From Oscillatoriales cyanobacterium (GTDB lineage: Bacteria; Cyanobacteriota; Cyanobacteriia; Cyanobacteriales; Microcoleaceae): 44,219 nt of DNA. The position numbers and the translations under genes are program-made. Where the stretch lies: positions 1-44,219 of the forward strand of contig RDYN01000053.1 in NCBI GenBank assembly GCA_004293365.1, in the 5' to 3' direction. Of this stretch, positions 7,410-33,279 are shown piece by piece. A model generated the notes under the pieces. It made no database searches and was not told where the DNA came from. It saw nothing but the letters and a program-made list of their open reading frames with translations. Numbering within the stretch: position 1 is the stretch's first letter; the number at the start of each line of letters is the position of its first letter.

Positions 7410-8684
7410 ATGGAGTGCACCGAATACGCAGAAGCCAAGCGAAAAGCAGCCAAAAAAATTAGCGCCGATATTCGAGAACGCTGGAACAATCGCATCGTCA
7501 CGCGGGGATTGCACTTGATGGGTGAAGCGGGGGCGGTGCAGTATTTAGCTGATTACGGGCGCGGCATTGGTACGGCAAAAGTTATCAGTTTTGCACTGTG
7601 TGCCGAGTCGGAAGGATATCCAGAAATGGCGATCGGCTTTTGGAAAAGAGCGTTTGAATTGGAAACGGGAGAAAAGCCGGCTAAAAACACTCCAAACAAG
7701 TCTACCACCAATGCTGCTCCTGCGGCAAAATCAAAGGCCGCGGCTAAAGTTGAGACTGCCAACAATCCAATTGTCCCCGAATTACCTCCGCACTTGCAGC
7801 CGGGAAGGATTGTGACGATGCAGCCGGTTGACGCGCCCAGCGAACGTTCTTATTATATCGAAAATCCCGAGTATTGGGGACAGCCAAAACGCGATGGCAA
7901 CCGAGTTGTGGTCGTGGCGACGCTAGATAAAGTATACTACCAATCGCGATCGACTAACCTGCGGCAACAAGCGTCAATTGCGATCGATCGCACTTTAACC
8001 GACACAGCAGCTAAAATTGGCATCTTTGTTTTAGACGGCGAACTGTATTACAAAAGCTGTACGGGCAGCGAACACCGCACGGGCGCCCAAGCTGCTACAG
8101 TTAATATTGAAAGCGGTTTTCCGACAACCCAGCCCACCGCAGTTTATGCCATTTTCAAAGCTTTGTTTTTCCAGGGAAATGACCTGACCAAAACCGCCGA
8201 ATCAGAAAGAATTGCCGCCGGAGTTGAAGTTGGCGAAATGCTGTTAAGTTTATCTGCGGAATTTGAAATTGTCCCGACATCTCGCACCGCAGGCGAAAAA
8301 CTTTTGCTAGCGCAGCAACAGGAAGCTGAAAACAGAGAAGGCGAAGTTTGGATTTTGCACAACTGCCGCTACGTAGGCGGCAAAGATGTTAAGAAATTCC
8401 CGATGGTAAGGACTAAATACTGTCAGGAATACGACTTATTTATTGTGGGATTGACTCCGACAAAAGTTGCGGGGCGGCCGTTTAGCGCGATCGAAGTCGC
8501 GCAAGAAATCGACGGCAAATTAGTACCTGTCGGAACAGTGGGAACGGGCTTTAGCAGCGGGGAAATGCTGGAAATCGCCAGACTGCACGAGGCAAACCCC
8601 CGGGGAGTCAAAATCAAAGTGCGATCGCAGGGATTGACAGAAAGTGGCAAACTGTGGCACGCCCGATTTCTAGAATTGTGTTAA
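7410..8684 (+). CDS. ATP-dependent DNA ligase-like protein
   Basis: A 424-residue protein. The first 100 residues are an unassigned helical domain followed by an Ala/Lys-rich linker. Residues from about 145 form a nucleotidyltransferase-type ligase core: adenylation motif KRDGNR with predicted nucleophile K160, motif III FVLDGELYY, motif IV REGEVWI, and motif V around RTKYCQEYDLFIVG. An OB-fold-like end carries GTVGTGFSSGEML. The expected reaction is ATP-dependent sealing of DNA nicks, supplementary to the NAD-dependent LigA that bacteria use for replication. Canonical motif IV is EGhhhK, and the lysine is not obvious here. GGAGG lies 4 bases before the ATG. The next gene is an SbcD-like nuclease, which suggests a repair role, though about 390 bp of repeats separate them. 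Confidence 0.82.
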   Translation: MECTEYAEAKRKAAKKISADIRERWNNRIVTRGLHLMGEAGAVQYLADYGRGIGTAKVISFALCAESEGYPEMAIGFWKRAFELETGEKPAKNTPNKSTTNAAPAAKSKAAAKVETANNPIVPELPPHLQPGRIVTMQPVDAPSERSYYIENPEYWGQPKRDGNRVVVVATLDKVYYQSRSTNLRQQASIAIDRTLTDTAAKIGIFVLDGELYYKSCTGSEHRTGAQAATVNIESGFPTTQPTAVYAIFKALFFQGNDLTKTAESERIAAGVEVGEMLLSLSAEFEIVPTSRTAGEKLLLAQQQEAENREGEVWILHNCRYVGGKDVKKFPMVRTKYCQEYDLFIVGLTPTKVAGRPFSAIEVAQEIDGKLVPVGTVGTGFSSGEMLEIARLHEANPRGVKIKVRSQGLTESGKLWHARFLELC

Positions 8685-9076: not shown

Positions 9077-10318
9077 ATGATTAAAATTCTTCACCTTTCA
9101 GACATTCACATGGGAAGCGGCTTTTCCCACGGGCGCGTCAATCCAGAAACCGGGTTAAATACGCGGCTGGAAGACTTCGCGGCGACGCTGAGTAAATGTA
9201 TGGATAGAGCAATTTCTGAACCCGTAGATTTAGTCATATTCGGCGGGGATGCTTTCCCGGATTCAACGCCGCCACCGTTTGTCAAAGAGGCTTTTGCGCG
9301 CCAATTCAGCCGCTTGGTTGAGGCGCAAATTCCGACGGTTTTGCTAGTAGGAAATCACGACCAACATTCCCAGGGACAGGGCGGCGCGAGTTTGGGAATT
9401 TACCGGACTTTGGGAATACCTAAGTTTATTGTAGGCGATCGCCTGGAAACACACCTCATACACACCCGCAACGGCGCCGTACAGGTGGTTACACTGCCTT
9501 GGTTGACGCGATCGACCTTAATGACTAAATCAGAAACCGAAAGCCTGTCTGTAGGCGACGTTAACCAATTATTAACCGAAAAACTGACGATCGCCATGGA
9601 AGGTGAAATCCGCCGCCTCAATCCCGAAATACCAACCGTACTATTAGCGCACTTAATGGCAGATAAAGCAAGCTTGGGCGCCGAGCGTTTTTTAGCAGTC
9701 GGCAAAGGATTCAACATACCCGTTGCCATGCTAACACGCCCTTGTTTCGACTACGTAGCCCTCGGTCACGTCCACAAACACCAAAATCTCAACGCTTCCA
9801 ACAATCCGCCCGTAATTTATCCCGGAAGCATCGAACGAGTTGACTTTAGCGAAGAGAAAGAAGACAAAGGCTTTGTGTTGATTAATTTGTCACGGGGTAA
9901 AGCCGAATGGGAATTTTGCACCTTACCCGTGCGGGTGTTTCAGACGATTAAGGTGAACGTATCTGAATCGGAAAGTCCCCAAGCCGACTTGGTGAAAGCC
10001 ATTGGGAAGAAGGAAATCCAAGATGCTGTCGTGAGATTGATCTACCAATTGCGATCGGAACAATTAGACTTAATTGATAACGCCGAATTGCACGCACTTC
10101 TCGGCGCAGCCCACAGCTACACAATTCAGCCGGAATTAGTCAGCCAGCTAGCAAGGCCGAGGTTGCCGGAATTGAATGCTAATAATAGTATAGAACCGTT
10201 AGATGCTTTGAAAACTTATTTAGCAAGTCGCGAAGATTTGAAAGATATTACTGAGAGTATGTTAGAAGCCGCGCGGGATTTGTTGGGAGTTGAAGAAGAA
10301 GCTTTAGTCGAATTTTAG
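9077..10318 (+). CDS. SbcD/Mre11-like metallophosphoesterase (DNA repair exonuclease)
   Basis: A 413-residue calcineurin-like phosphoesterase with the two-metal motifs in order: LSDIHMG (residues 6-12), FGGDAF, VGNHDQHS, LLAHLM and GHVHKHQ. This order and the capping region that follows resemble the nuclease subunit SbcD/Mre11, which trims DNA ends and hairpins with an SbcC/Rad50 ATPase. No SbcC is adjacent. The downstream ATPase (10545-11879) is only 444 residues and lacks long coiled coils, so it is not SbcC. The ligase upstream and fold-back repeats around the gene fit a DNA-processing setting. Whether it pairs with an SbcC encoded elsewhere is unknown. Confidence 0.85.
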   Translation: MIKILHLSDIHMGSGFSHGRVNPETGLNTRLEDFAATLSKCMDRAISEPVDLVIFGGDAFPDSTPPPFVKEAFARQFSRLVEAQIPTVLLVGNHDQHSQGQGGASLGIYRTLGIPKFIVGDRLETHLIHTRNGAVQVVTLPWLTRSTLMTKSETESLSVGDVNQLLTEKLTIAMEGEIRRLNPEIPTVLLAHLMADKASLGAERFLAVGKGFNIPVAMLTRPCFDYVALGHVHKHQNLNASNNPPVIYPGSIERVDFSEEKEDKGFVLINLSRGKAEWEFCTLPVRVFQTIKVNVSESESPQADLVKAIGKKEIQDAVVRLIYQLRSEQLDLIDNAELHALLGAAHSYTIQPELVSQLARPRLPELNANNSIEPLDALKTYLASREDLKDITESMLEAARDLLGVEEEALVEF

Positions 10319-10544: not shown

Positions 10545-11879
10545 ATGAGAATAAATAAAATTTCTGTCACCAAACTTTTTGGAGTGTTCAACCATCCGGT
10601 TTCGCTCAATATGGAAGATAGGATCGCGATTATTCATAGTCCAAATGGATTTGGCAAAACAGCCTTATTTAGGTTAATTAATGGATTTTTCAATTCACTT
10701 GACTCAGAACTTTGGACTATCCCATTTACAGAGTTCCGGTTAGACTTTGATGATGGTAGTTGTCTACAAATAACTAAATCGATCGATGCACCTGAACATG
10801 AGAAAGATAAAAATTTAATGTTTTACTTTGCTAAGCCTGGTGCAGCAAAAGAGATATTCTCACCGAATTTAATAATGGACTCAATAGATGATTTCTCAGC
10901 GGGAATCAATGTGTCTTCGGATATCACAGATGATACACTACAGTCATCAGGTGACATAGACACACCAACTCAAGTTTCAGAATTAGAATTAGAACGTATT
11001 CTCGTCTTTAAAGCTAGACAGTTAATATCAAGGTTAGCAAAGAGCGTTAAGAAAGAACCAAAATGGCTGTCAGAACTAAGAAGTTCTATCGATGTTCATT
11101 TTATCGAAACTCAACGTTTGTTAACTCCCTCAAGTTTTCCTAAACCAGCGGTAGATACAAAACACCCTTCAATGATTCCATCGGTTAGTATCTATTCCCA
11201 GGAACTCGCAGAAGAGATTCAAGCAAAACTGGCTGAATACGGTGCATTATCTCAATCCCTTGAAAGAACCTTTCCCGCAAGAATTTTTAATAACAAATCA
11301 CCCTCCAATATCACAGAGAAAACGCTGCATAACAAATTAAATGAAATTGAGCAAAAGCGTTCTCTTCTCAGAGAAATTGGTCTTTTGGATAAAGACGAAA
11401 ATCCTGATTTTCAAATTGAACAACATATTGATAATACCACAAAAAATATTTTGTCAGTTTATGTTGAAGATGTAGAACAAAAACTCATGGTTTTCAAGGA
11501 ACTCGCTACTAAAATAGAACTTTTTACGAGAATTATTCAACAGCGATTTCTATACAAGCATATGAGTATCAGCAAAGATAAAGGTTTTACCTTTACAACG
11601 GCTGATGGTAAGCCTTTGTTGGCGACAGACTTATCTTTCGGAGAACAACACGAACTGGTAATGCTTTACGAGTTGTTATTCAGAGTTAAACCTAACTCAC
11701 TGGTTCTCATTGATGAACCTGAAATTTCGCTTCACATAGCATGGCAAGTTGAGTTTCTCAAAGATTTGCAAGCAATTATTAAGTTGGCAAACTTTGACGT
11801 GCTTATCGCATCTCATTCTCCAGATATTATAGACGATCGCTGGGATTTGACAGTGGAATTGAAAGGGCCAGTTGAATGA
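10545..11879 (+). CDS. AriA-like ATPase of a PARIS-type defence pair
   Basis: A 444-residue ABC/AAA-type ATPase with Walker A SPNGFGKTALF (K38), an ABC-signature-like LSFGEQ near residue 366, Walker B LVLIDEPEISLH (D390-E391) and a switch histidine in ASHSPDII. A helical middle region separates the two halves. This is the architecture of OLD/AAA_15 ATPases that partner DUF4435 proteins in PARIS, where the ATPase scaffold senses a phage anti-restriction protein and releases the toprim effector AriB. The ATGA overlap with the next gene (11876-11879) shows coupling. AGAGGG lies 4 bases before the ATG. Assignment to PARIS rather than another ATPase-DUF4435 system rests on this pairing; the trigger is unknown. 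Confidence 0.78.
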   Translation: MRINKISVTKLFGVFNHPVSLNMEDRIAIIHSPNGFGKTALFRLINGFFNSLDSELWTIPFTEFRLDFDDGSCLQITKSIDAPEHEKDKNLMFYFAKPGAAKEIFSPNLIMDSIDDFSAGINVSSDITDDTLQSSGDIDTPTQVSELELERILVFKARQLISRLAKSVKKEPKWLSELRSSIDVHFIETQRLLTPSSFPKPAVDTKHPSMIPSVSIYSQELAEEIQAKLAEYGALSQSLERTFPARIFNNKSPSNITEKTLHNKLNEIEQKRSLLREIGLLDKDENPDFQIEQHIDNTTKNILSVYVEDVEQKLMVFKELATKIELFTRIIQQRFLYKHMSISKDKGFTFTTADGKPLLATDLSFGEQHELVMLYELLFRVKPNSLVLIDEPEISLHIAWQVEFLKDLQAIIKLANFDVLIASHSPDIIDDRWDLTVELKGPVE

Positions 11880-12733
11880 CAAATAATCTTAAACCGGATC
11901 GTATTGCCAACAAACTTCGCTTGCTGAGAACTCAATCTAAATATACTGGATCTTTTGTAATTGCTGAGGGAGATACAGATGCGCGGGTGTGGAAAAACTT
12001 GATAGATTCCACAAAGTGTCGTGTGGAAATTGCCCATAATAAGGACAATGTTGTAAAAGTGCTCAATATCCTTGAAAAGGATAACTTTGCGGGCGTGTTG
12101 GCTATTGTTGATGCTGATTTTTGGATACTAGAAGGTACTGTTACATCTAGTTCTAACTTACTATTAACTGATACTCACGATCTTGAAACTATGCTGCTGA
12201 AATCGCCAGCACTTGAAAAAGTTCTTTCCGAACACGGTTCTGAACAAAAAATCAATAATTTTGGTAAAGATATTCGCCAAACTTTACTGGAAAGTGCCAA
12301 AGTTATTGGTTATTTACGATGGGTTTCGTTAAAGTTTAATTATGCTTTAAAATTTGAAGGTTTAGCTTTTAGTAAATTTGTAGACGATAAAACCTTGGAA
12401 CTAAATGAGTCAAAATTACTGCAAACTGTGAAAAATAACTCTCAAAAACTGGGACTTGATGAGGCAGAAATTATAGCAAAGATGGATAGCTTAAAAACAA
12501 ATGCTCAAGATATGTGGTATGTTTGTTGCGGTCACGATATGATTTGTATTTTGTCGATCGCACTTTGCAAAGCCCTAGGCACCTGCAACTCCAAGCAAGT
12601 TGAGCCAGATGTACTAGAAAAAGACCTTAGACTTGCTTACGAGTCCTCTCATTTCCAACTGACACAACTTTACACAGCCATTCAAGATTGGGAAAAAACC
12701 AATCAACCCTTCCAGGTACTTTCTAGCCTGTAG
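11876..12733 (+). CDS. AriB-like DUF4435/TOPRIM protein of a PARIS-type pair
   Basis: A 285-residue protein with a TOPRIM-like metal site: IAEGDTD (E31), then LAIVDADFW (D79, D81) and [11 protein letters not shown], the hallmark of DUF4435. In PARIS, this component is the effector released from the ATPase; TOPRIM nucleases of this type cut nucleic acid (tRNA for the studied AriB) and abort phage infection. All expected acidic residues are present, so it is probably active. Its ATG overlaps the upstream stop by four bases. Its 3' end overlaps that of the convergent fmt gene by 11 bp, a very tight fit for a horizontally gained cassette. Confidence 0.8.
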
Positions 12734-14561: not shown

Positions 14562-14880
14562 TATCTCGCCTTCTCCATTATCGGTTGGAAAATTATTCCT
14601 GAACTCTTTTTATACATCCAATAAATTCCAATTTGCTAGCCTAGGAACTAGGGTATTATACTATGGCAAAATCTTAACTATTTCGCACATCATCAGCCTG
14701 ACACACGTTACAAGTTTGGTAATTCATTTATAGTTTTATCTAATAAATCGGGCAACTCTTCGGAATCCCTACCAAGCTACCCGATTTGGTTTTATTTTCG
14801 GATGAAGTCACCCCATCACAGGAACAAGTCTGGACTCTTCTTACACGCCCGACAAATTCCCATTTGCCAGTTCCGATAGC

Positions 14881-15040
14881 GAAGAGTGCTCACAGGGAAG
14901 ACAGGGAGGAAGGGACAGCCAAAGCTACCGCTACACGAAAACCCCTGTTCCTGTTCGAGTTGCCCGCAGAGTTGTAGTTGCGGTTGGCAGCACGGCAATT
15001 GACCGCATTGTTGTTCCACGAACCTCCACGCTGCACTCGG
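14881..15040 (-). ncRNA. DGR template repeat (TR)
   Basis: A non-coding 160-bp sequence aligning without gaps to 15417-15576, the 3' end of the adjacent lectin-fold gene. Read on the minus strand in the target frame it would encode RGGSWNNNAVNCRAANRN and then YNSAGNSNRNRGFRV, an Asn (AAC/AAT)-rich string typical of DGR templates. Of 16 mismatches, 13 are at TR adenines and change nine codons. Two are silent non-A changes (GCC/GCA and TCG/TCA). One lies after the stop (14888 versus 15424) and may separate the IMH from the IMH-star. There is no start codon or upstream gene body in this frame. In DGRs the TR RNA is copied by an error-prone RT, which is not visible in this window. Confidence 0.9.
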
Positions 15041-15189
15041 AAGTGCTTGTCCCTTCTCCACCCTCTCACTTGCGCGAGAAAAATGGATACTTATTTACTA
15101 TCTCAAAAAAAGGGATATTTCTCAACCTTTTTTCTCATGACTTACGCAATGAAACCGGGTTTCTACGAAAAATCTTGGTTTCTCAACTA

Positions 15190-15293
15190 ATACCAATTTA
15201 AAAAAAGAATGCAACAGTATTCTTGTCCCCCCCCTTAGCAAGGGGGGGCTAGGGGGGGTCGAAGAGTGTTGCGCGATTTTAGTAAAATGGTAT
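15190..15293. repeat. Fold-back element carrying a nested C/G-run repeat
   Basis: The ends ATACCAATTTA and, inverted, ATACCATTTTA mark a 104-bp palindromic element with arms of about 26 bp. The centre contains the C8-TTAGCAA-G7 motif (15226-15259) also found inside murE. It lies between the DGR TR and VR and has no coding content. Confidence 0.7.
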
Positions 15294-15343
15294 AAACATC
15301 TACCAAGAAACCCGGTTTCTACCTACCCATCGCCACTTCCCCG

Positions 15344-15369
15344 AAAAAAAAATTGAGCGCTAGCGCGCT
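15344..15369 (-). terminator. Hairpin with T-run after the DGR target gene
   Basis: On the minus strand a 5-bp stem AGCGC/GCGCT with tetraloop GCTA (15356-15369) is followed within a few bases by nine T residues (15344-15352). This fits an intrinsic terminator. DGR target genes often carry a short tetraloop hairpin just after the VR that aids retrohoming. This one is about 47 bp past the VR and its loop is not the usual GNRA-like type, so that role is uncertain. Confidence 0.5.
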
Positions 15370-15416
15370 AGAGGGAAAAGGAAAAAGAGCAAAGCGCAAA
15401 AGGGCAAAAGAGCAAA

Positions 15417-15576
15417 GAAGAGTCCTCACAGGGAAGACAGGGAGGAAGGGACAGCCAAAGCTACCGCTACACGAAAACCCCTGCCCCTGTATGAGTAGCC
15501 CGCAGAGCCGTAGTTGCGGAATGCAGCACGGCAATCGACCGCATTGCCGTCCCACGAACCTCCACGCAGCACTCGG
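15417..15576 (-). repeat. DGR variable repeat (VR)
   Basis: This forms the last 49 codons of the target gene plus 9 bp past the stop. Relative to the TR, nine codons differ at adenines: one CAG to CTG (Q to L), AAC/AAT to GAC/GAT (N to D, twice), to GGC (N to G, three times), to TTC (N to F) and to TAC (N to Y, twice). The last 60 bp or so up to the stop are invariant, as expected for the initiation region. Confidence 0.9.
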
Positions 15577-17549
15577 TTACTATCTCCGCCAGTTGTCCGC
15601 GAAGTACCATCAGATGGCGCGCCATTGTAACTACCATGCCAAGGATCAGCGCACCATTCCCAAACATTGCCGTGCATATCGTACAAACCAAACCCATTCG
15701 GGGGAAAACTTCCCACCGGAGTAGTTTCTTGACGATAAAGTCCTTTCGGTGCAGAACCGTAGGGATTATTGCCGTCATAATTAACTAAATCTGGAGTAAT
15801 AGTCTCCCCAAAGTGAAAAGCCGTAGTTGTTCCAGCCCGACAAGCATATTCCCACTCGGCCTCACTCGGCAAACGATAGGTTTTTCCAGTTTTCTCAGAC
15901 AACTTCTGACAAAAACTTACCGCATCATTCCACGATACATTTTCTACAGGCCGTTTCTCACCTTTAAAACCAGAAGGGTTATTTCCCATCACCGCTTGCC
16001 ACTGTTCTTGAGTAATGGCATATTTCCCTAAATAGAATGGCTGGGCAAAAGTTACCTGATGTTGGGGGCGTTCACTATCACTACCTTCTCCCGACGGTGA
16101 ACCCATCATAAAACTACTCGCCGGGATATGCACCATTTCCAGTTTCACCCCATTACCCAAATCTTCCTCTTTTTGATAAGCTTTCCCCGACTGCTTGCTA
16201 GTTTGTTTCCCGTACTTATCCACCGCGATCATTTCAAAAGTAAATGCTTTACCTTTACTAGCTTCTTCCTCCCGCCGCAAACGTTCCGCTTCGGCTGCCT
16301 GATGTTGACGTTCCCTTTCCTTTGCTTCTTGACGCAAACGTTTCGCTTCCGCCTCCCGTTTTCTCTCCTCCAATACAGCCAAAGCCACATCGCGGATATG
16401 CAAAACACCCGGTAAACTCGGATTAATTTGCAACGCCAGATTAAAATCTTCAACTGCCCGTTCTAACTGTCCCAGCTTCTGATAAACTAACCCGCGATGG
16501 TGGTAAACACTAGCTTCATTCGGATTCAGCCGCAATACTTGGTCAAAATCAGCGATCGCGCCCTGATACTCTGCAATTTGATAATAAGCCAAACCCCGCT
16601 GAAAATTCGCCTCAAACCGAGAACCGTCTAACTGCAAAACCTGATGAAAATCTGTAATCGCCGAAGAATATTCCCCATTTTTTGCCCGTTGCAAACCCCT
16701 CCGCCAACAAGACTCAATGATACTTAACTGCAAACTCGCCCCCAAAACTCGCAAACATTCATTTAGCTTAGTTACATAGGGTTCATCATCAATCGTCAAA
16801 GCCGCCGCCAAAACATTTAATAACTGACTTTGTTCGGGAATCGGCAAACCGTGCAGCCTCAACCAATCTTGAACAGACAAATACAACTGTGCAGCAGCCC
16901 ACTGCTTGTCAGCCAAAATCAACAGAGATATAGCTAAATCCAAACGCAAATCAGGAATCAGTGCCGACTCTTGTTCAGCCAAACAATCATATAATTGCTG
17001 ATAATAACCAACCGCAATTTCCGTCAGAATATTCTGTTCGTCAGCGGGCATTTTTTTCAACATTTCCGGGAGTAACTGCGGTAGAAAAGGTGTTTTTCGC
17101 TCATCTGGAGGCAAAAACATCAGACAATATTCATCAACAATTAACCCCGCGATCAAAGCATGGCAAATGCAAATAAATTTTGTTAAATCATCGGAATCAT
17201 TTTTGTGAAAATGATAAGGGCGATGAATTTCGCTTAAATCTTCTCCTTCCTCTAGGGCTTCCCGTTCAATTTCCAAGATTCGTAAATTTTCCTGATAGCG
17301 TTTAACTGTTTCCTCACCAAAACGAAGATCGAAATCAGCCACAGGCTTACCAGAGTCAATATACGCTTGTCGTTTTGTTTGCCAATTCACAGCCCGTTGT
17401 TTGGCAAAATCATACAATATCTCAACCCAAGGTAACTGATTGATGGGAGTTTTGTAGCGATACTTTTTGAAATTAATATGCCAAAAGCCAAAACGCAGGT
17501 AAAACTTATCATGGGTAGCGGATGAGTCTAGAATCAGGGTAGGAATCAC
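15426..17549 (-). CDS. DGR target protein: TPR, coiled coil and C-type-lectin/FGE-fold variable domain
   Basis: A 707-residue protein. Residues 1-270 are unassigned. About 290-390 are three TPRs (for example GEYSSAITDFHQVLQLDG). About 395-435 is a charged coiled coil (EERKREAEAKRLRQEAKERE). From about 465 comes a formylglycine-generating-enzyme/C-type-lectin fold: VHIPASSFMMGSP, YAITQEQWQAVMGNNPSG, YRLPSEAEWEYACRAGT, DMHGNVWEWCADPW, then RGGSW. The last 49 residues are the VR, which in DGR proteins displays variable residues on a ligand-binding surface; binding, not sulfatase activation, is the likely role. The GTG at 17549 overlaps the upstream stop (GTGA). The same frame is open and protein-like 25 codons further upstream (GGSWRTNVFREEAAAENLF), which suggests a frameshift splits one longer gene. 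Confidence 0.85.
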   Translation of the reverse strand: MIPTLILDSSATHDKFYLRFGFWHINFKKYRYKTPINQLPWVEILYDFAKQRAVNWQTKRQAYIDSGKPVADFDLRFGEETVKRYQENLRILEIEREALEEGEDLSEIHRPYHFHKNDSDDLTKFICICHALIAGLIVDEYCLMFLPPDERKTPFLPQLLPEMLKKMPADEQNILTEIAVGYYQQLYDCLAEQESALIPDLRLDLAISLLILADKQWAAAQLYLSVQDWLRLHGLPIPEQSQLLNVLAAALTIDDEPYVTKLNECLRVLGASLQLSIIESCWRRGLQRAKNGEYSSAITDFHQVLQLDGSRFEANFQRGLAYYQIAEYQGAIADFDQVLRLNPNEASVYHHRGLVYQKLGQLERAVEDFNLALQINPSLPGVLHIRDVALAVLEERKREAEAKRLRQEAKERERQHQAAEAERLRREEEASKGKAFTFEMIAVDKYGKQTSKQSGKAYQKEEDLGNGVKLEMVHIPASSFMMGSPSGEGSDSERPQHQVTFAQPFYLGKYAITQEQWQAVMGNNPSGFKGEKRPVENVSWNDAVSFCQKLSEKTGKTYRLPSEAEWEYACRAGTTTAFHFGETITPDLVNYDGNNPYGSAPKGLYRQETTPVGSFPPNGFGLYDMHGNVWEWCADPWHGSYNGAPSDGTSRTTGGDSNRVLRGGSWDGNAVDCRAAFRNYGSAGYSYRGRGFRVAVALAVPSSLSSL

Positions 17550-18391
17550 GCGCAAACCGGCAAATAAGTTTTCCGCCGCCGCCTCTTCCCGAAAAACATT
17601 AGTCCGCCAAGAACCGCCATAAATTGTACTGGCCGACCATCGCTGATATACTTATCTAGGAAGGTTCGCAAATAGTTGCTTAAAAACTCCTCAGATACCG
17701 GAAAGTTTTGATTACCTTTAGCCGGATCGTGAGTCAATACTGGAGGTGATAAGAAAACTCGTAAAGTGGGTGTATCTTCGGGGTTGATGTTGGCAATAAT
17801 GTTTTCGGCGGTGACTAGAATCGGGGAATTTTCTAAGTTTTTTTGCTTGACAATGGCGGCAATTGCTGTTTCGCGATTTACCTGAGCAATTTCTCGTGCT
17901 AGAAGTGCGTCTAACTGTTTTAATTCTAGTTGAAGTTGACGCTGTTCGGCGATGCAGAATTTTTGCAATTCAGCGCGCAATACTTCAATTTGGGCGCTGT
18001 GTTCGCGGTTGAGTTTGCCTTCATTGGCTTGAAAATCTCGATTGAGTCGGGCTAATTTGTCTTGTAATTCGCGATTCAGCGTGCCTTCATGGGCTTGAAA
18101 TGCGATATTCATTTCGGCGAGGTATTTTTGTAAACCTCGGTTCAAATCGCCTTGTTCTTTTGTGATATCAAGACTGGCTTGATGTTGCAAGTTTTGGACG
18201 ATGGTAATTTTTTGTTGTAATTCTCGTTGTTTGTTGGCGTTTTCAATGGCAGTCTCTGAATTAATTGTAGCAGTAACAATGCCAGTTTCTAATATGCGGT
18301 CTTGCCGATATTTTTCTGGCATAAATATGGATTTGCAAGCATCGCCTATGTTACTCCAAAATCCTTTTTTTCCTGGTAATGCTTTGGTCAT
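17546..18391 (-). CDS. Coiled-coil protein upstream of DGR target (probable N-terminal half)
   Basis: A 281-residue protein. After a basic N-terminus (TKALPGKKGFWSNIGDACKS) residues 45-185 are a long Gln/Glu/Leu-rich coiled coil with near-repeats (GTLNRELQDKLARLNRDF and GKLNREHSAQIEVLRAEL). A compact region then includes PTLRVFLSPPVLTHDP and DKYISDGRPVQF. The last 25 residues (GKRRRRKTYLPVCA) look like out-of-frame sequence, because the other frame over the same bases continues as a plausible protein into the lectin-fold gene. The shift point is near 17618-17626. AGGAG precedes the ATG. It is probably the N-terminal half of the DGR target, or a translationally coupled partner. No family was recognised. 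Confidence 0.75.
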   Translation of the reverse strand: MTKALPGKKGFWSNIGDACKSIFMPEKYRQDRILETGIVTATINSETAIENANKQRELQQKITIVQNLQHQASLDITKEQGDLNRGLQKYLAEMNIAFQAHEGTLNRELQDKLARLNRDFQANEGKLNREHSAQIEVLRAELQKFCIAEQRQLQLELKQLDALLAREIAQVNRETAIAAIVKQKNLENSPILVTAENIIANINPEDTPTLRVFLSPPVLTHDPAKGNQNFPVSEEFLSNYLRTFLDKYISDGRPVQFMAVLGGLMFFGKRRRRKTYLPVCA

Positions 18392-18442: not shown

Positions 18443-18690
18443 TACCCGACAGAAACCGGGTTTTTCGGAAATCTTGGGGGACAATCAAATATTTGGGAAA
18501 AAACCCGGTTTCTGGGCCTCTCGTCTACCCGACAGAAACCGGGTTTTTTGGGAGTTTTTGGGTGAGAATTAAGTATTTGGGAAAAAACCCGGTTTCTGGG
18601 CCTCTCGTCTACCCGACAGAAACCGGGTTTTTTGGGAGTTTTTTTGTAATAACGAAGTATTTGGGAAAAAACCCGGTTTCTCATCTCCCG
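18443..18690. repeat. Three tandem ~84-bp repeats with AAACCGGGTTT motifs
   Basis: Units start at 18443, 18526 and 18610, each carrying CCGACAGAAACCGGGTTTTT followed about 50 bp later by AAAAAACCCGGTTTCT. Each unit can fold into a hairpin. They fill most of the 318-bp gap between the coiled-coil gene and the His/Gln-rich gene. Isolated relatives (GAAACCGGGTTTCT and similar) occur near 15152 and 15307. Both strands are open across the array, but this follows from the repeat, not from a gene. Confidence 0.9.
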
Positions 18691-18709
18691 TGTAGCCATG
18701 ATTAATCAA

Positions 18710-19902: not shown

Positions 19903-19972
19903 GATATTTATTTGTGTCAATAATTCAATGCTTTGATGTCGAGAATCTAATTAGTTATACAAGGGATTTAAA

Positions 19973-20079
19973 GGGTGTATCTCATTTTTATAATAAGCAT
20001 TTTTTAAAGAGCGGACTGAAGTCCGGACTACGAACCTTTTTTGAGCGGAACACTGTAAATGCAAAACTGAGATGCTCCC
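19973..20079. repeat. MITE 'GGAGCATCTCA', diverged copy
   Basis: It shares the AGCATTTTTTAAAGAGCGGA segment, the CTACGAACCTTTTTTGAGCG segment and the right end AAAACTGAGATGCTCC with the intact copy at 20851-20956. The left end is degenerate (GTGTATCTCATTTTT). No target duplication is recognisable. Confidence 0.8.
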
Positions 20080-20108
20080 GATTTAAACTTGTTTTTAAAA
20101 CAATAAAA

Positions 20109-20687: not shown

Positions 20688-20850
20688 CTGATTCACCAAT
20701 TTTACTTACCATGTCGATTTTATCATATCTGCCAAAACATGAAAAAATCCTTGAATATGGGGCAGCCAGCCAGTCGCAGCTTGTTGGCAGATACCCCACA
20801 ACCAGAGTAATATATTCATAACGAACAAGTCAGTCAATGGCTATTAACCG

Positions 20851-20956
20851 GGAGCATCTCAATTTTGCAAGAAGCATTTTTTAAAGAGCGGACTCTACTG
20901 ACGTACTACGAACCTTTTTTGAGCGGAACACTGTAAATACAAAACTGAGATGCTCC
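20851..20956. mobile_element. Intact 106-bp MITE with 10-bp target duplication
   Basis: The terminal inverted repeats GGAGCATCTCAATTTT and AAAACTGAGATGCTCC (16 bp, one mismatch) bound a 106-bp non-coding element. The flanks CTATTAACCG occur on both sides (20841-20850 and 20957-20966), a direct target-site duplication. A diverged relative lies at 19973-20079. The remainder of the 517-bp gap 20688-21204 has no gene; GCGTCCATCCGCGTTCATCT near 21151 is another common short repeat. Confidence 0.88.
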
Positions 20957-21204
20957 CTATTAACCGAATTCCCGCATTCGGGCGCGTCGAAATGCCTAAC
21001 TTGGCAAAATATCGATCGCACTTGACAGCAATTTCTTGCGATCGGATGTGCCCGCAAGATACACTAGGAGGCGGAGTTTTCAGGGTTTTGTTTCAAAACA
21101 CCTCCCCCAGACTTCTGAGATTCAACCAGTTTCACCAACCTCTAACTATCCGCGTCCATCCGCGTTCATCTGCGGTTAAAAAAATCTTCCCTGAACACTA
21201 AAAA

Positions 21205-26651: not shown

Positions 26652-27944
26652 ATGCAACTAACAGAGAGGCACATCATTAAATCAACGGAACACCGTTTCG
26701 CCCAAATAGACGAACTAGCTTTCAAGTCCAAAAACCTCTACAATGCCGCCAATTACGTCATTCGTCAGAGTTTTATTTATGGGTGGGGCTATGTCAATTA
26801 CAACGAAATGAACCGATTGATGAAGTCTCACGAAGCATATAAGGCAATGCCAGCTAAAGTAAGTCAGCAAATCTTGATGGTGCTAGACAAGAATTGGAAA
26901 TCGTTTTTTGAAGCCGTTAAAGCTTACAAAGCTGACTCTTCAAAATTCACGGGTAGCCCAAAGTTGCCAAAGTACAAAGATAAGACTAAAGGGCGAAATC
27001 TTCTCGTCTACACGATTCAAGCAATTAGCAGCAAACAGTTGAAAAAAGGAATCATTAAACTTTCCGGCACTGAACTTTCAATTAAAACCCAAGTCAATCC
27101 CAACCAGATTTGTCAAGTTAGAGTGGTTCCGAAATGTGATTCCTATGTAATTGAGGTGATTTATGATGCTTGTACTGAGTGTAGTCGAAGTGAACCGGAG
27201 TCCACCCTTGGCAATGCCAACTCTGTAGCTAGTATTGATTTGGGACTGGATAATTTAGTGGCGTTAACTTCAAATCAGCCGGGATTTATCCCTTTGTTGA
27301 TTAACGGGCGACCATTAAAATCGATTAACCAGTTCTATAACAAACGCAAATCCCGATTACAATCCCAGTTCAAAGGGAATCGTCAAACCTCACCCAGGAT
27401 TCAGCGCTTAACTCGTTGTCGCAACCAAAAAGTTGATAATTACTTGCATCATGCTAGTCGCCTGATTGTTGCGATTTTAAATACCAAACAAATTGGGACG
27501 CTAGTAATTGGCAAGAATGCACAGTGGAAAACTGAAATTGATCTAGGGAAGCAAACCAACCAAAACTTTGTTAGTATTCCTCACTCTCGATTAATTGAAA
27601 TGTTGGAGTACAAAGCTCGGTTGGTGGGAATCACAGTAATAGTGCAGGAAGAATCCTACACATCGCGGGCTAACTTCGTGGGTCTAGACCCAATCCCTGT
27701 CTATGGGAAAACAGAAAAAGAGCCAATGTTTACTGGTAAGCGTATTAAGCGAGGTTTGTACAAAACATCGACTGGTCAGTTAATTAATTCTGATATCAAC
27801 GCTTCGTACAACATCCTCAGAAAAGCAATCCCAAATGCCTTCGGCAATGGGATAGGGAGCTGCGTAGCTCAGCCGAGGCGGGTTAATCCGCTCAAAGTGA
27901 AAGTGAAGGGGGAGGGACTTGAAGCCTCCCATGCCTATAAATGA
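26652..27944 (+). CDS. Solo TnpB, IS891/IS1341 type (RNA-guided nuclease family)
   Basis: A 430-residue TnpB/OrfB protein of the IS200/IS605 group with no TnpA beside it. RuvC-I is SIDLGLDNLV and the last RuvC motif is SDINASYNILRK, giving two catalytic Asp. The usual RuvC-II Glu (normally in an EDLN-type motif) is replaced by VIGKNAQWK. A Glu in QEESYTSRA further on may substitute, as in TnpB groups with a rearranged site. The C4 zinc ribbon is not apparent. Bases 27170-27193 hold a dispersed cyanobacterial repeat translated as CTECSRSE, an in-frame insertion just before RuvC-I. The structured GC-rich 3' end (about 27840-27945) is where a guide omega-RNA would be expected. Confidence 0.88.
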   Translation: MQLTERHIIKSTEHRFAQIDELAFKSKNLYNAANYVIRQSFIYGWGYVNYNEMNRLMKSHEAYKAMPAKVSQQILMVLDKNWKSFFEAVKAYKADSSKFTGSPKLPKYKDKTKGRNLLVYTIQAISSKQLKKGIIKLSGTELSIKTQVNPNQICQVRVVPKCDSYVIEVIYDACTECSRSEPESTLGNANSVASIDLGLDNLVALTSNQPGFIPLLINGRPLKSINQFYNKRKSRLQSQFKGNRQTSPRIQRLTRCRNQKVDNYLHHASRLIVAILNTKQIGTLVIGKNAQWKTEIDLGKQTNQNFVSIPHSRLIEMLEYKARLVGITVIVQEESYTSRANFVGLDPIPVYGKTEKEPMFTGKRIKRGLYKTSTGQLINSDINASYNILRKAIPNAFGNGIGSCVAQPRRVNPLKVKVKGEGLEASHAYK

Positions 27945-32184: not shown

Positions 32185-33279
32185 ATGTTTGCCGTCAAAC
32201 GAGCGCTCAAATTGAATAATAGGGAAGCGACCTTGATGGCGAAACACGCAGGATTTCGGCGCGTGGTATTTAACATGGGGTTAAGTTTGCGGACTCAAAT
32301 GTACAGTGAGGGGAAACTTACAGACTCAAAGGTGATTAACGAAATTAAAAAAGTTCTCACTAATTACGTCAAAAAGCAGCCTGAATTCGCTTGGATGAAC
32401 CAATTGTCTAGCCGAGTTTACCAAAACGCTTTGATTGACTTGAAAGATGCTTTTAGCCGATATCGTTCTGGTTCTTCAGGTCATCCAAAATTCGCCAGTC
32501 GTCGAGACGGTCAATCTTTTACGGTTGATTCATCTAACGGCAAAGTTTTGTTAAACGCTGGCAACACTATTAAGATTCCTACTCTGGGAACTTTTCGGCT
32601 TTACGAAGCCCTAGATTGTAGTTTTATTTCTCAAACTTTTACGATTTCAAAAGAAGGGAATCGCTGGTTTGTTTCTATCTGCGTTGATGCAGAGCGTCTC
32701 CCGGTTCAGCAGTCTGAAAGTTCTGTGGGAATCGATGTTGGTATCAAGTCATTTGCCACTCTCTCAAAAGGGCAGTTTTTTGATGCACCGAAGCCGTTAA
32801 TAGCCCGTGCGAAAACCAAGCTTGCTACTTTACAGCGCCAAGCATCAAAGCAGGTAAAAGGCTCTCGAAATAAGCGTAAAACTTACAATAAGATTAGCCA
32901 GATTCATGCAAAGATAGCTCGTATTCGCCTAGATTTCCTTCACAAGTTAACAACTTATTTAGCTAAAACTTTTAAGTTAATTAAGATTGAAAATTTGAAC
33001 GTCAAAGGAATGATGGCAAATCACAAGTTAGCGGGAGCAATATCTGACCTTGGTTTTTATGAGTTTAAACGTCAACTCGACTATAAATGTCAAATGTATG
33101 GAGCTAACTTGGTATTGGTAGACCAGTGGTTTCCTAGTACCAAAACTTGCTCAAATTGCGGCACAAAAAAAGATATGCCACTAAGCATACGGACTTTTGA
33201 CTGTCCTGTTTGTGGCAGATATTTGGATCGCGATTGGAACGCCAGCATTAACATTTTAAATTGGGAACCCTCGGCTTGA
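32185..33279 (+). CDS. Solo TnpB (RNA-guided endonuclease, complete active site)
   Basis: A 364-residue TnpB of canonical layout: N-terminal helices beginning MFAVKRALKLNNREATLMAK, RuvC-I VGIDVGIKSFATL (Asp), RuvC-II LIKIENLNVKGM (Glu), zinc ribbon CSNCG...CPVCG and RuvC-III LDRDWNASINI (Asp). The whole triad is present, so a guide-RNA-directed DNA nuclease is expected. No TnpA accompanies it. It sits between two almost identical response-regulator genes of one operon and in the same direction, so read-through transcription of the downstream genes may depend on it. It is only distantly similar to the TnpB at 26652-27944. Confidence 0.93.
   Translation: MFAVKRALKLNNREATLMAKHAGFRRVVFNMGLSLRTQMYSEGKLTDSKVINEIKKVLTNYVKKQPEFAWMNQLSSRVYQNALIDLKDAFSRYRSGSSGHPKFASRRDGQSFTVDSSNGKVLLNAGNTIKIPTLGTFRLYEALDCSFISQTFTISKEGNRWFVSICVDAERLPVQQSESSVGIDVGIKSFATLSKGQFFDAPKPLIARAKTKLATLQRQASKQVKGSRNKRKTYNKISQIHAKIARIRLDFLHKLTTYLAKTFKLIKIENLNVKGMMANHKLAGAISDLGFYEFKRQLDYKCQMYGANLVLVDQWFPSTKTCSNCGTKKDMPLSIRTFDCPVCGRYLDRDWNASINILNWEPSA

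Follow-up and report, generated by a model that had tools for sequence, protein, structure and literature searches.

A template/variable repeat pair with adenine-specific substitutions at a lectin-fold gene of an Oscillatoriales cyanobacterium: probable remnant of a diversity-generating retroelement

The contig RDYN01000053.1 of an Oscillatoriales cyanobacterium (44,219 nt, analysed in full and referred to here as the window) carries a template repeat (TR) and, at the end of a lectin-fold gene, a variable repeat (VR) that differs from it almost exclusively at template adenines, as expected of a diversity-generating retroelement (DGR). The window is one whole contig of a 7.3 Mb assembly (GCA_004293365.1; G000) of 218 contigs, listed as 99.99% complete. 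Based on the distribution of the differences (13/30 template adenines vs 3/130 other bases) and on the fact that we found no DGR-type reverse transcriptase (RT) in this assembly, we consider it probable (roughly 0.76) that the pair is the remnant of a DGR that once rewrote the lectin-fold gene and likely no longer does so. A sequence-only reading of the window had proposed that this protein is, or was, hypermutated; the adenine signature upholds the past tense of that proposal, whereas the failed search for a DGR-type RT speaks against a DGR operating at present.

A repeat search showed the two copies to be an ungapped direct repeat of 160 nt with 90% identity, the TR beginning 376 bases downstream of the VR on the minus strand (Table 1). 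The alignment first read from the bare sequence proved exact to the base, and a recount returned the same 13 of 16 mismatches at template adenines, these comprising 8 A>G, 5 A>T and no A>C substitutions in the minus-strand sense. They fall in nine codons, every one of which changes its amino acid (Q>L, and N to D, G, D, F, G, Y, Y and G), while the two remaining coding mismatches are, as that reading had also held, silent (Ala GCC>GCA and Ser TCG>TCA) and the third non-A mismatch lies 3' of the stop codon. The direct order of the copies, 536 bases apart from start to start, would also be produced by an ordinary partial gene duplication, with the TR as a truncated and drifted copy of the gene end, but we find this scarcely credible: drift would not concentrate 13 of the 16 changes on only 30 of the 160 positions (Fisher p = 1.1e-8), the non-coding flank of the TR is kept alike across genera, and the same adenine pattern is found in other species.

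Table 1. Coordinates of the repeat pair and associated features in the window
Feature	Position	Strand	Remarks
TR	14881-15040	-	160 nt; 30 A; 10 AAY codons when read in frame with the VR; repeat search and alignment
VR	15417-15576	-	End of FGE/lectin-fold gene, stop codon and first bases beyond; repeat search and alignment
TR-marking base	14888	-	C; VR partner 15424 is G; last mismatch, after the stop codon
Template-RNA unit (inferred)	14737-15097	-	57 nt + TR + 144 nt; similar in a complete DGR
25-nt element of TR 3' flank	14814-14838	-	AGAGTCCAGACYTGTTCCNGTGATG
Possible second, partial copy of TR 3' flank, decayed	14599-14639	-	41 nt, downstream of TR
Target gene, C-terminal frame	15426-17555	-	709 aa; tetratricopeptide repeats (TPRs) ~16407-16715; FGE/C-type-lectin-like domain 15465-16139
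Target gene, N-terminal frame	17546-18391	-	281 aa; not in the frame of the C-terminal part; single frame in relatives

The pattern extends beyond this genome. Compared with the window TR, the VRs of nine other genomes (ten loci in all: G004, G006, G011, G012, G018, G020, G024 twice, G025 and G026) differ at 9-19 of the 30 A sites and at 3-12 of the 130 other sites (4/129 in one), and two shorter matches (G020:C267 and G004:C215) agree with this; by comparison, the TR of the window and that of a congener, G008, differ at 2/30 A and 17/130 other sites. Changes in the VRs thus concentrate at sites facing a template A while the TRs keep their adenines, and the pattern here and across species strongly supports the DGR origin claimed for the pair. 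The main alignment took in 24 places from 45 match rows; of the 21 left out, five of them with E-values below 1e-20, eight were measured separately and two of these (L035 and L044) were uninformative. In eight of the genes compared with that of the window, four-fold sites in the rest of the domain differ by 49-65%, and within the VR 3-10% of sites differ in codons lacking A as against 28-35% in codons containing A. Pooled over nine carriers, in pairs that are not independent, the counts were 766/2725 for four-fold sites of the body, 68/854 for four-fold sites in non-A codons of the VR, and 713/1944 for A-containing codons of the VR. As the bodies are far diverged and the non-A sites of the VRs nearly identical, these gene ends were likely rewritten from one template very like that of the window. 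An intact 989-residue relative of the target protein (P0002, 90% identity) differs from the translated TR at 11 positions, all in A-containing codons. Among orthologous genes of 381 residues, the pairs G004-G006 and G020-G025 differ at only 3/54 and 2/54 A-codons, respectively, as expected of frozen VRs.

The window yielded no RT (with two DGR RTs as tblastn queries, the best match had an E-value of 0.11), and the G000 assembly gave no match to the RT of G008 at E≤1e-30. Five matches to RVT_1 were found in this assembly at E≤0.001, none of DGR type: a group II intron RT on contig C165 (above the NCBIfam cut-off), two matches on C161 and C2 that look like two parts of a second group II intron RT (named by sequence only), an RT-Cas1 fusion on C137 and a retron-type RT on C140 (PADLOC RT_XIII, 665 bits). 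By eye, none of the five showed the SQ motif of the RT of G008 described below, the C2 match covering only the end of the domain, and based on their types we rejected them as trans-acting DGR RTs. A check for accessory genes of the Avd type identified PF05635 matches on contigs C122 and C11 of G000; among those listed for G008, G007 and G015, none is on the same contig as the DGR RT. Since no DGR-type RT was found, we file the locus as a DGR remnant and not as a working DGR.

The congener G008 has a complete DGR of the same kind, in which the target gene is followed by the TR and then by an RT of 348 residues with the motifs LPIGNLTSQ and YVDD; the SQ in place of SP in the first of these is a feature that we take to mark DGR RTs. 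The two loci share the target gene (80% DNA identity over 3.1 kb) and the order of VR and TR; they differ in that G008 has an RT after the TR and a target frame that stops within the VR. Homology between them runs through the target gene, then through the predicted template-RNA unit (88.7% identity over 362 columns; 88% between the TRs) and ends with it. The RT of G008 starts ~377 nt past the end of this shared unit (~520 nt after its TR), where the window instead has small DUF4160 and DUF2442 genes and a formyltransferase gene. At its end the unit has a predicted hairpin (14745-14787; fold z -2.69), which could be a terminator. The 3' flank of the TR was matched in 15 of 61 genomes of the family at E≤0.001, in some of them partially (G034, G035 and G059 having partial matches only), and its 25-nt element is present with ≤6 mismatches in 31/58 DGR-type-RT loci (29/56 places, as two places are held twice). 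Of the remaining loci, which include some distant relatives or cut-short loci, 25/58 have no copy within 7 mismatches and 2 have one at 7 only. Each base of the window's element is a state found among the matching loci; its one departure from the common base outside the free position, C to T, is shared with 4/31 of them. The distances between flanks were 0.12 (window-G008), 0.12 (window-G036) and 0.13 (G008-G036), and neither these nor the 25-nt element revealed measurable decay of the flank after RT loss. No Rfam family matched the window at gathering scores and no tRNA was found in it.

Downstream of the TR there may be a decayed second copy of part of this flank, which scored 37 against a highest score of 34 in shuffled sequences (0/2000 as high) and which BLASTN matched weakly (E 0.005); judged from this similarity, it is perhaps a trace of a lost portion of the DGR. 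This possible copy tells against a variant of our reading that differs only in the place of the RT, namely that an RT never stood beside this locus and that a distant one, since lost, wrote the VR. The G008 locus, with target, TR and RT in one order and with homology to the window spanning both target and TR, likewise argues against this. On the other side, cyanobacterial DGR components and targets are often dispersed according to the text of PMC7517822 available to us, and three genomes (G024, G023 and G016) have the genes of both flanks around at least part of the target, with no TR flank and no DGR-type RT. On balance we regard an RT that was never beside the locus as quite unlikely.

The predicted variable domain (pLDDT, the predicted local distance difference test score, 94) fits the structures of PvdO, TvpA, FGE, TaqVP and Mtd in a structure comparison, and this, together with the domain match, bears out the lectin/FGE fold proposed for the gene whose 3' end is the VR. 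The match to TvpA (Treponema denticola variable protein 1; 2y3c), which is from another phylum, is limited to the FGE-like domain. When the domain is aligned with human FGE, a variable Gly stands opposite the first cysteine of YMCHRSYC and a Cys opposite the second, so that the catalytic pair (C336/C341 of the human enzyme) is not kept; this suggests that the domain serves in binding and not in catalysis. The proposed joining of TPRs, a coiled coil and a lectin domain in one scaffold holds for the TPR and lectin part, which share the C-terminal frame, and is not supported for an intact N-terminal/TPR/lectin scaffold, as the gene changes frame near 17.55-17.6 kb and its two parts lie in different, overlapping frames. 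Elsewhere the target is unbroken (stop-to-stop open frames of 952 residues in G008 and 1070 in G023, and P0002). The N-terminal frame has no Pfam, NCBIfam or PADLOC family match. A 659-residue protein (P0001) is 100% identical, starts inside the target gene and ends at the first codon of the VR, so a second assembly of this organism may have the same frame break. Other copies are split at another place (G024), shortened (G016) or, in G008, stopped ~13 nt into the VR, and from such comparisons the gene seems to be weakly guarded in several lineages. Upstream of it is an 84-nt repeat in three tandem copies (18453-18704), with similar words again between the VR and the TR.

Several observations weigh against an inactive remnant. 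The assembly is in 218 contigs, which leaves room for an RT in a gap, on a lost plasmid or in a minor variant; the 3' flank of the TR is no more changed than in an RT-bearing relative; and the low number of non-A differences between TR and VR indicates that the system was active until recently in evolutionary terms. The RT should therefore have been lost not long ago, unless it has simply escaped detection. In orthologous genes of 381 residues, four-fold sites differ by 0.01-0.17 in the body and by 0-0.13 in the VR, with no clear difference between the two, such that rewriting there is visible at A-codons only. Not all VR-like gene ends are recent copies of the window TR: in G010, G023, G016, G019, G022, G002 and G015 (C172) 13-26% of non-A sites differ (the non-A values for G023, G016, G007 and G022 are overestimates, as these rows run past the ends of the local matches), and G003 and G023:C53 have 21/124 and 20/127 non-A differences, respectively. 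The same is true of two VR-like gene ends in G000 itself, on C57 (31/130) and C124 (29/128), which have too many non-A differences to support a role as live remote targets.

Some of these points would suit a DGR that is still active, with an RT supplied in trans from a plasmid, an assembly gap or a minority structural variant and acting on the TR RNA. The TR flank and the 25-nt element look intact, TR and VR differ at few non-A bases, and RTs 84-92% identical to that of G008 exist, one at 87% in Microcoleus sp. A003_D6; furthermore, the available text of PMC10907252 reports trans activity and structural variants with an intact RT in Thiohalocapsa PB-PSB1. However, the assembly, listed as nearly complete, yielded no DGR-type RT, there is none in cis on an unbroken contig, and the reading frame of the target is broken, and we therefore consider continuing activity rather unlikely and an inactive remnant the better explanation.

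Under the remnant reading, the TR would have been transcribed as RNA from ~15097 to the hairpin at the end of the unit, a DGR RT, now lost, would have copied this RNA with errors at adenines, and the cDNA would have taken the place of the target's 3' end by retrohoming; the later loss of the RT would then have frozen the VR. The join would have been set by a homologous tail in which the TR has C and the VR has G. In a pattern scan of the fetched loci, the position equivalent to 14888 was C in the TRs of the window and G008 and G at 18 distinct gene ends; a G036 gene end joined to the TR flank also has C, as does the TR of G007, and a fused copy of G015 has G. On this pattern the base looks like part of a signal separating VR from TR and not like drift, and the difference resembles what we take to be the IMH*/IMH (initiation of mutagenic homing) difference of known DGRs.

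TR candidates in G036 and next to the RT of G015 were rejected on inspection, being gene ends fused to the 3' flank of a TR (7597-7895 of locus L215 in G036; L104/L098 in G015). In these the gene end joins the flank directly, as though recombination between VR and TR had deleted the intervening DNA, which would be another route by which a DGR could die. Among 29 genomes of the genus, including that of the window, a TR/VR-like stretch occurs in 21 and a DGR-type RT in 5. In the 61 family genomes a DGR-type RT was found in 14, ten of which also have the TR flank; five have the flank with no DGR-type RT (G000, G034, G035, G036 and G059) and four the RT with no flank match (G001, G055, G056 and G057). 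A TR-like match lies within ~20 nt after the RT in 13/51 DGR-RT loci (L121-L149), mostly of Nostocales, and before the RT in G008, G007 and G015. A phage origin was rejected: a single viral contig had an RT, 34% identical, and the exact 19-base tail of VR and TR was found in no viral contig.

Based on this distribution we speculate, at somewhat less than even odds, that hypermutation in this genus is hit-and-run, i.e., that the DGR core (TR and RT) comes and goes while the rewritten genes stay, leaving most species with a frozen repertoire of hypermutated lectin domains. If this were true, the window would represent a half-way state and hold the sole surviving template of its type, in 29 species searched, for VRs in nine other species. 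Searches that start from the RT would miss such a remnant. The window TR serves here as a key to past targets in species where no DGR-type RT was found, which makes the life and death of DGRs, along with any retention of their products after the machine is lost, countable.

Remnants of this kind are already known in cyanobacteria. In the text available from PMC7517822, cyanobacterial DGRs are described with C-terminal lectin (CLec) variable proteins and remote targets, and all3226 of Nostoc sp. PCC 7120 is given as a TR-VR remnant with no RT gene or pseudogene nearby; incomplete DGRs, trans activity and structural variants are also reported in the corresponding portion of PMC10907252. The window resembles all3226 in that a lectin-domain gene shows TR-VR homology while no RT gene or pseudogene lies nearby, and differs in that the Nostoc genome, according to that text, has two DGRs elsewhere, whereas no DGR-type RT was found in the genome of the window. 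With the CLec DGRs of PMC7517822, as far as its available text describes them, it shares a C-terminal FGE/CLec domain joined to other domains, a VR near the 3' end and remote target copies; it differs from them in having no RT found at the locus and a broken target frame. In the accessible portions of the literature (including PMC7517822, PMC10907252, PMC8144416 and PMC8867640) there is no account of a TR/VR pair in a DGR-RT-free genome being used to identify VRs in species that lack the RT, and in those on DGRs and Microcoleus the genus is named in another context only.

Elsewhere in the window, on the plus strand, an ATP-dependent ligase-like gene (7410-8684) is followed by a calcineurin-like phosphoesterase gene (9077-10318), the two possibly forming a nucleic-acid repair pair. 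Overlapping genes for an AAA ATPase and a DUF4435 protein (10545-12733, plus strand) lie some 2 kb away from the DGR remnant; their best PADLOC matches are to AriA (1.5e-21, with PtuA models close) and AriB (6.7e-26), respectively, and they form a PARIS-like anti-phage pair. A Uma2 gene is flanked on both sides by direct repeats (52 and 60 nt, spaced 877-878 bases; 19966-20083 and 20843-20961), and two OrfB/TnpB-like genes of the IS605 kind lie at 26652-27944 and 32185-33279 on the plus strand.
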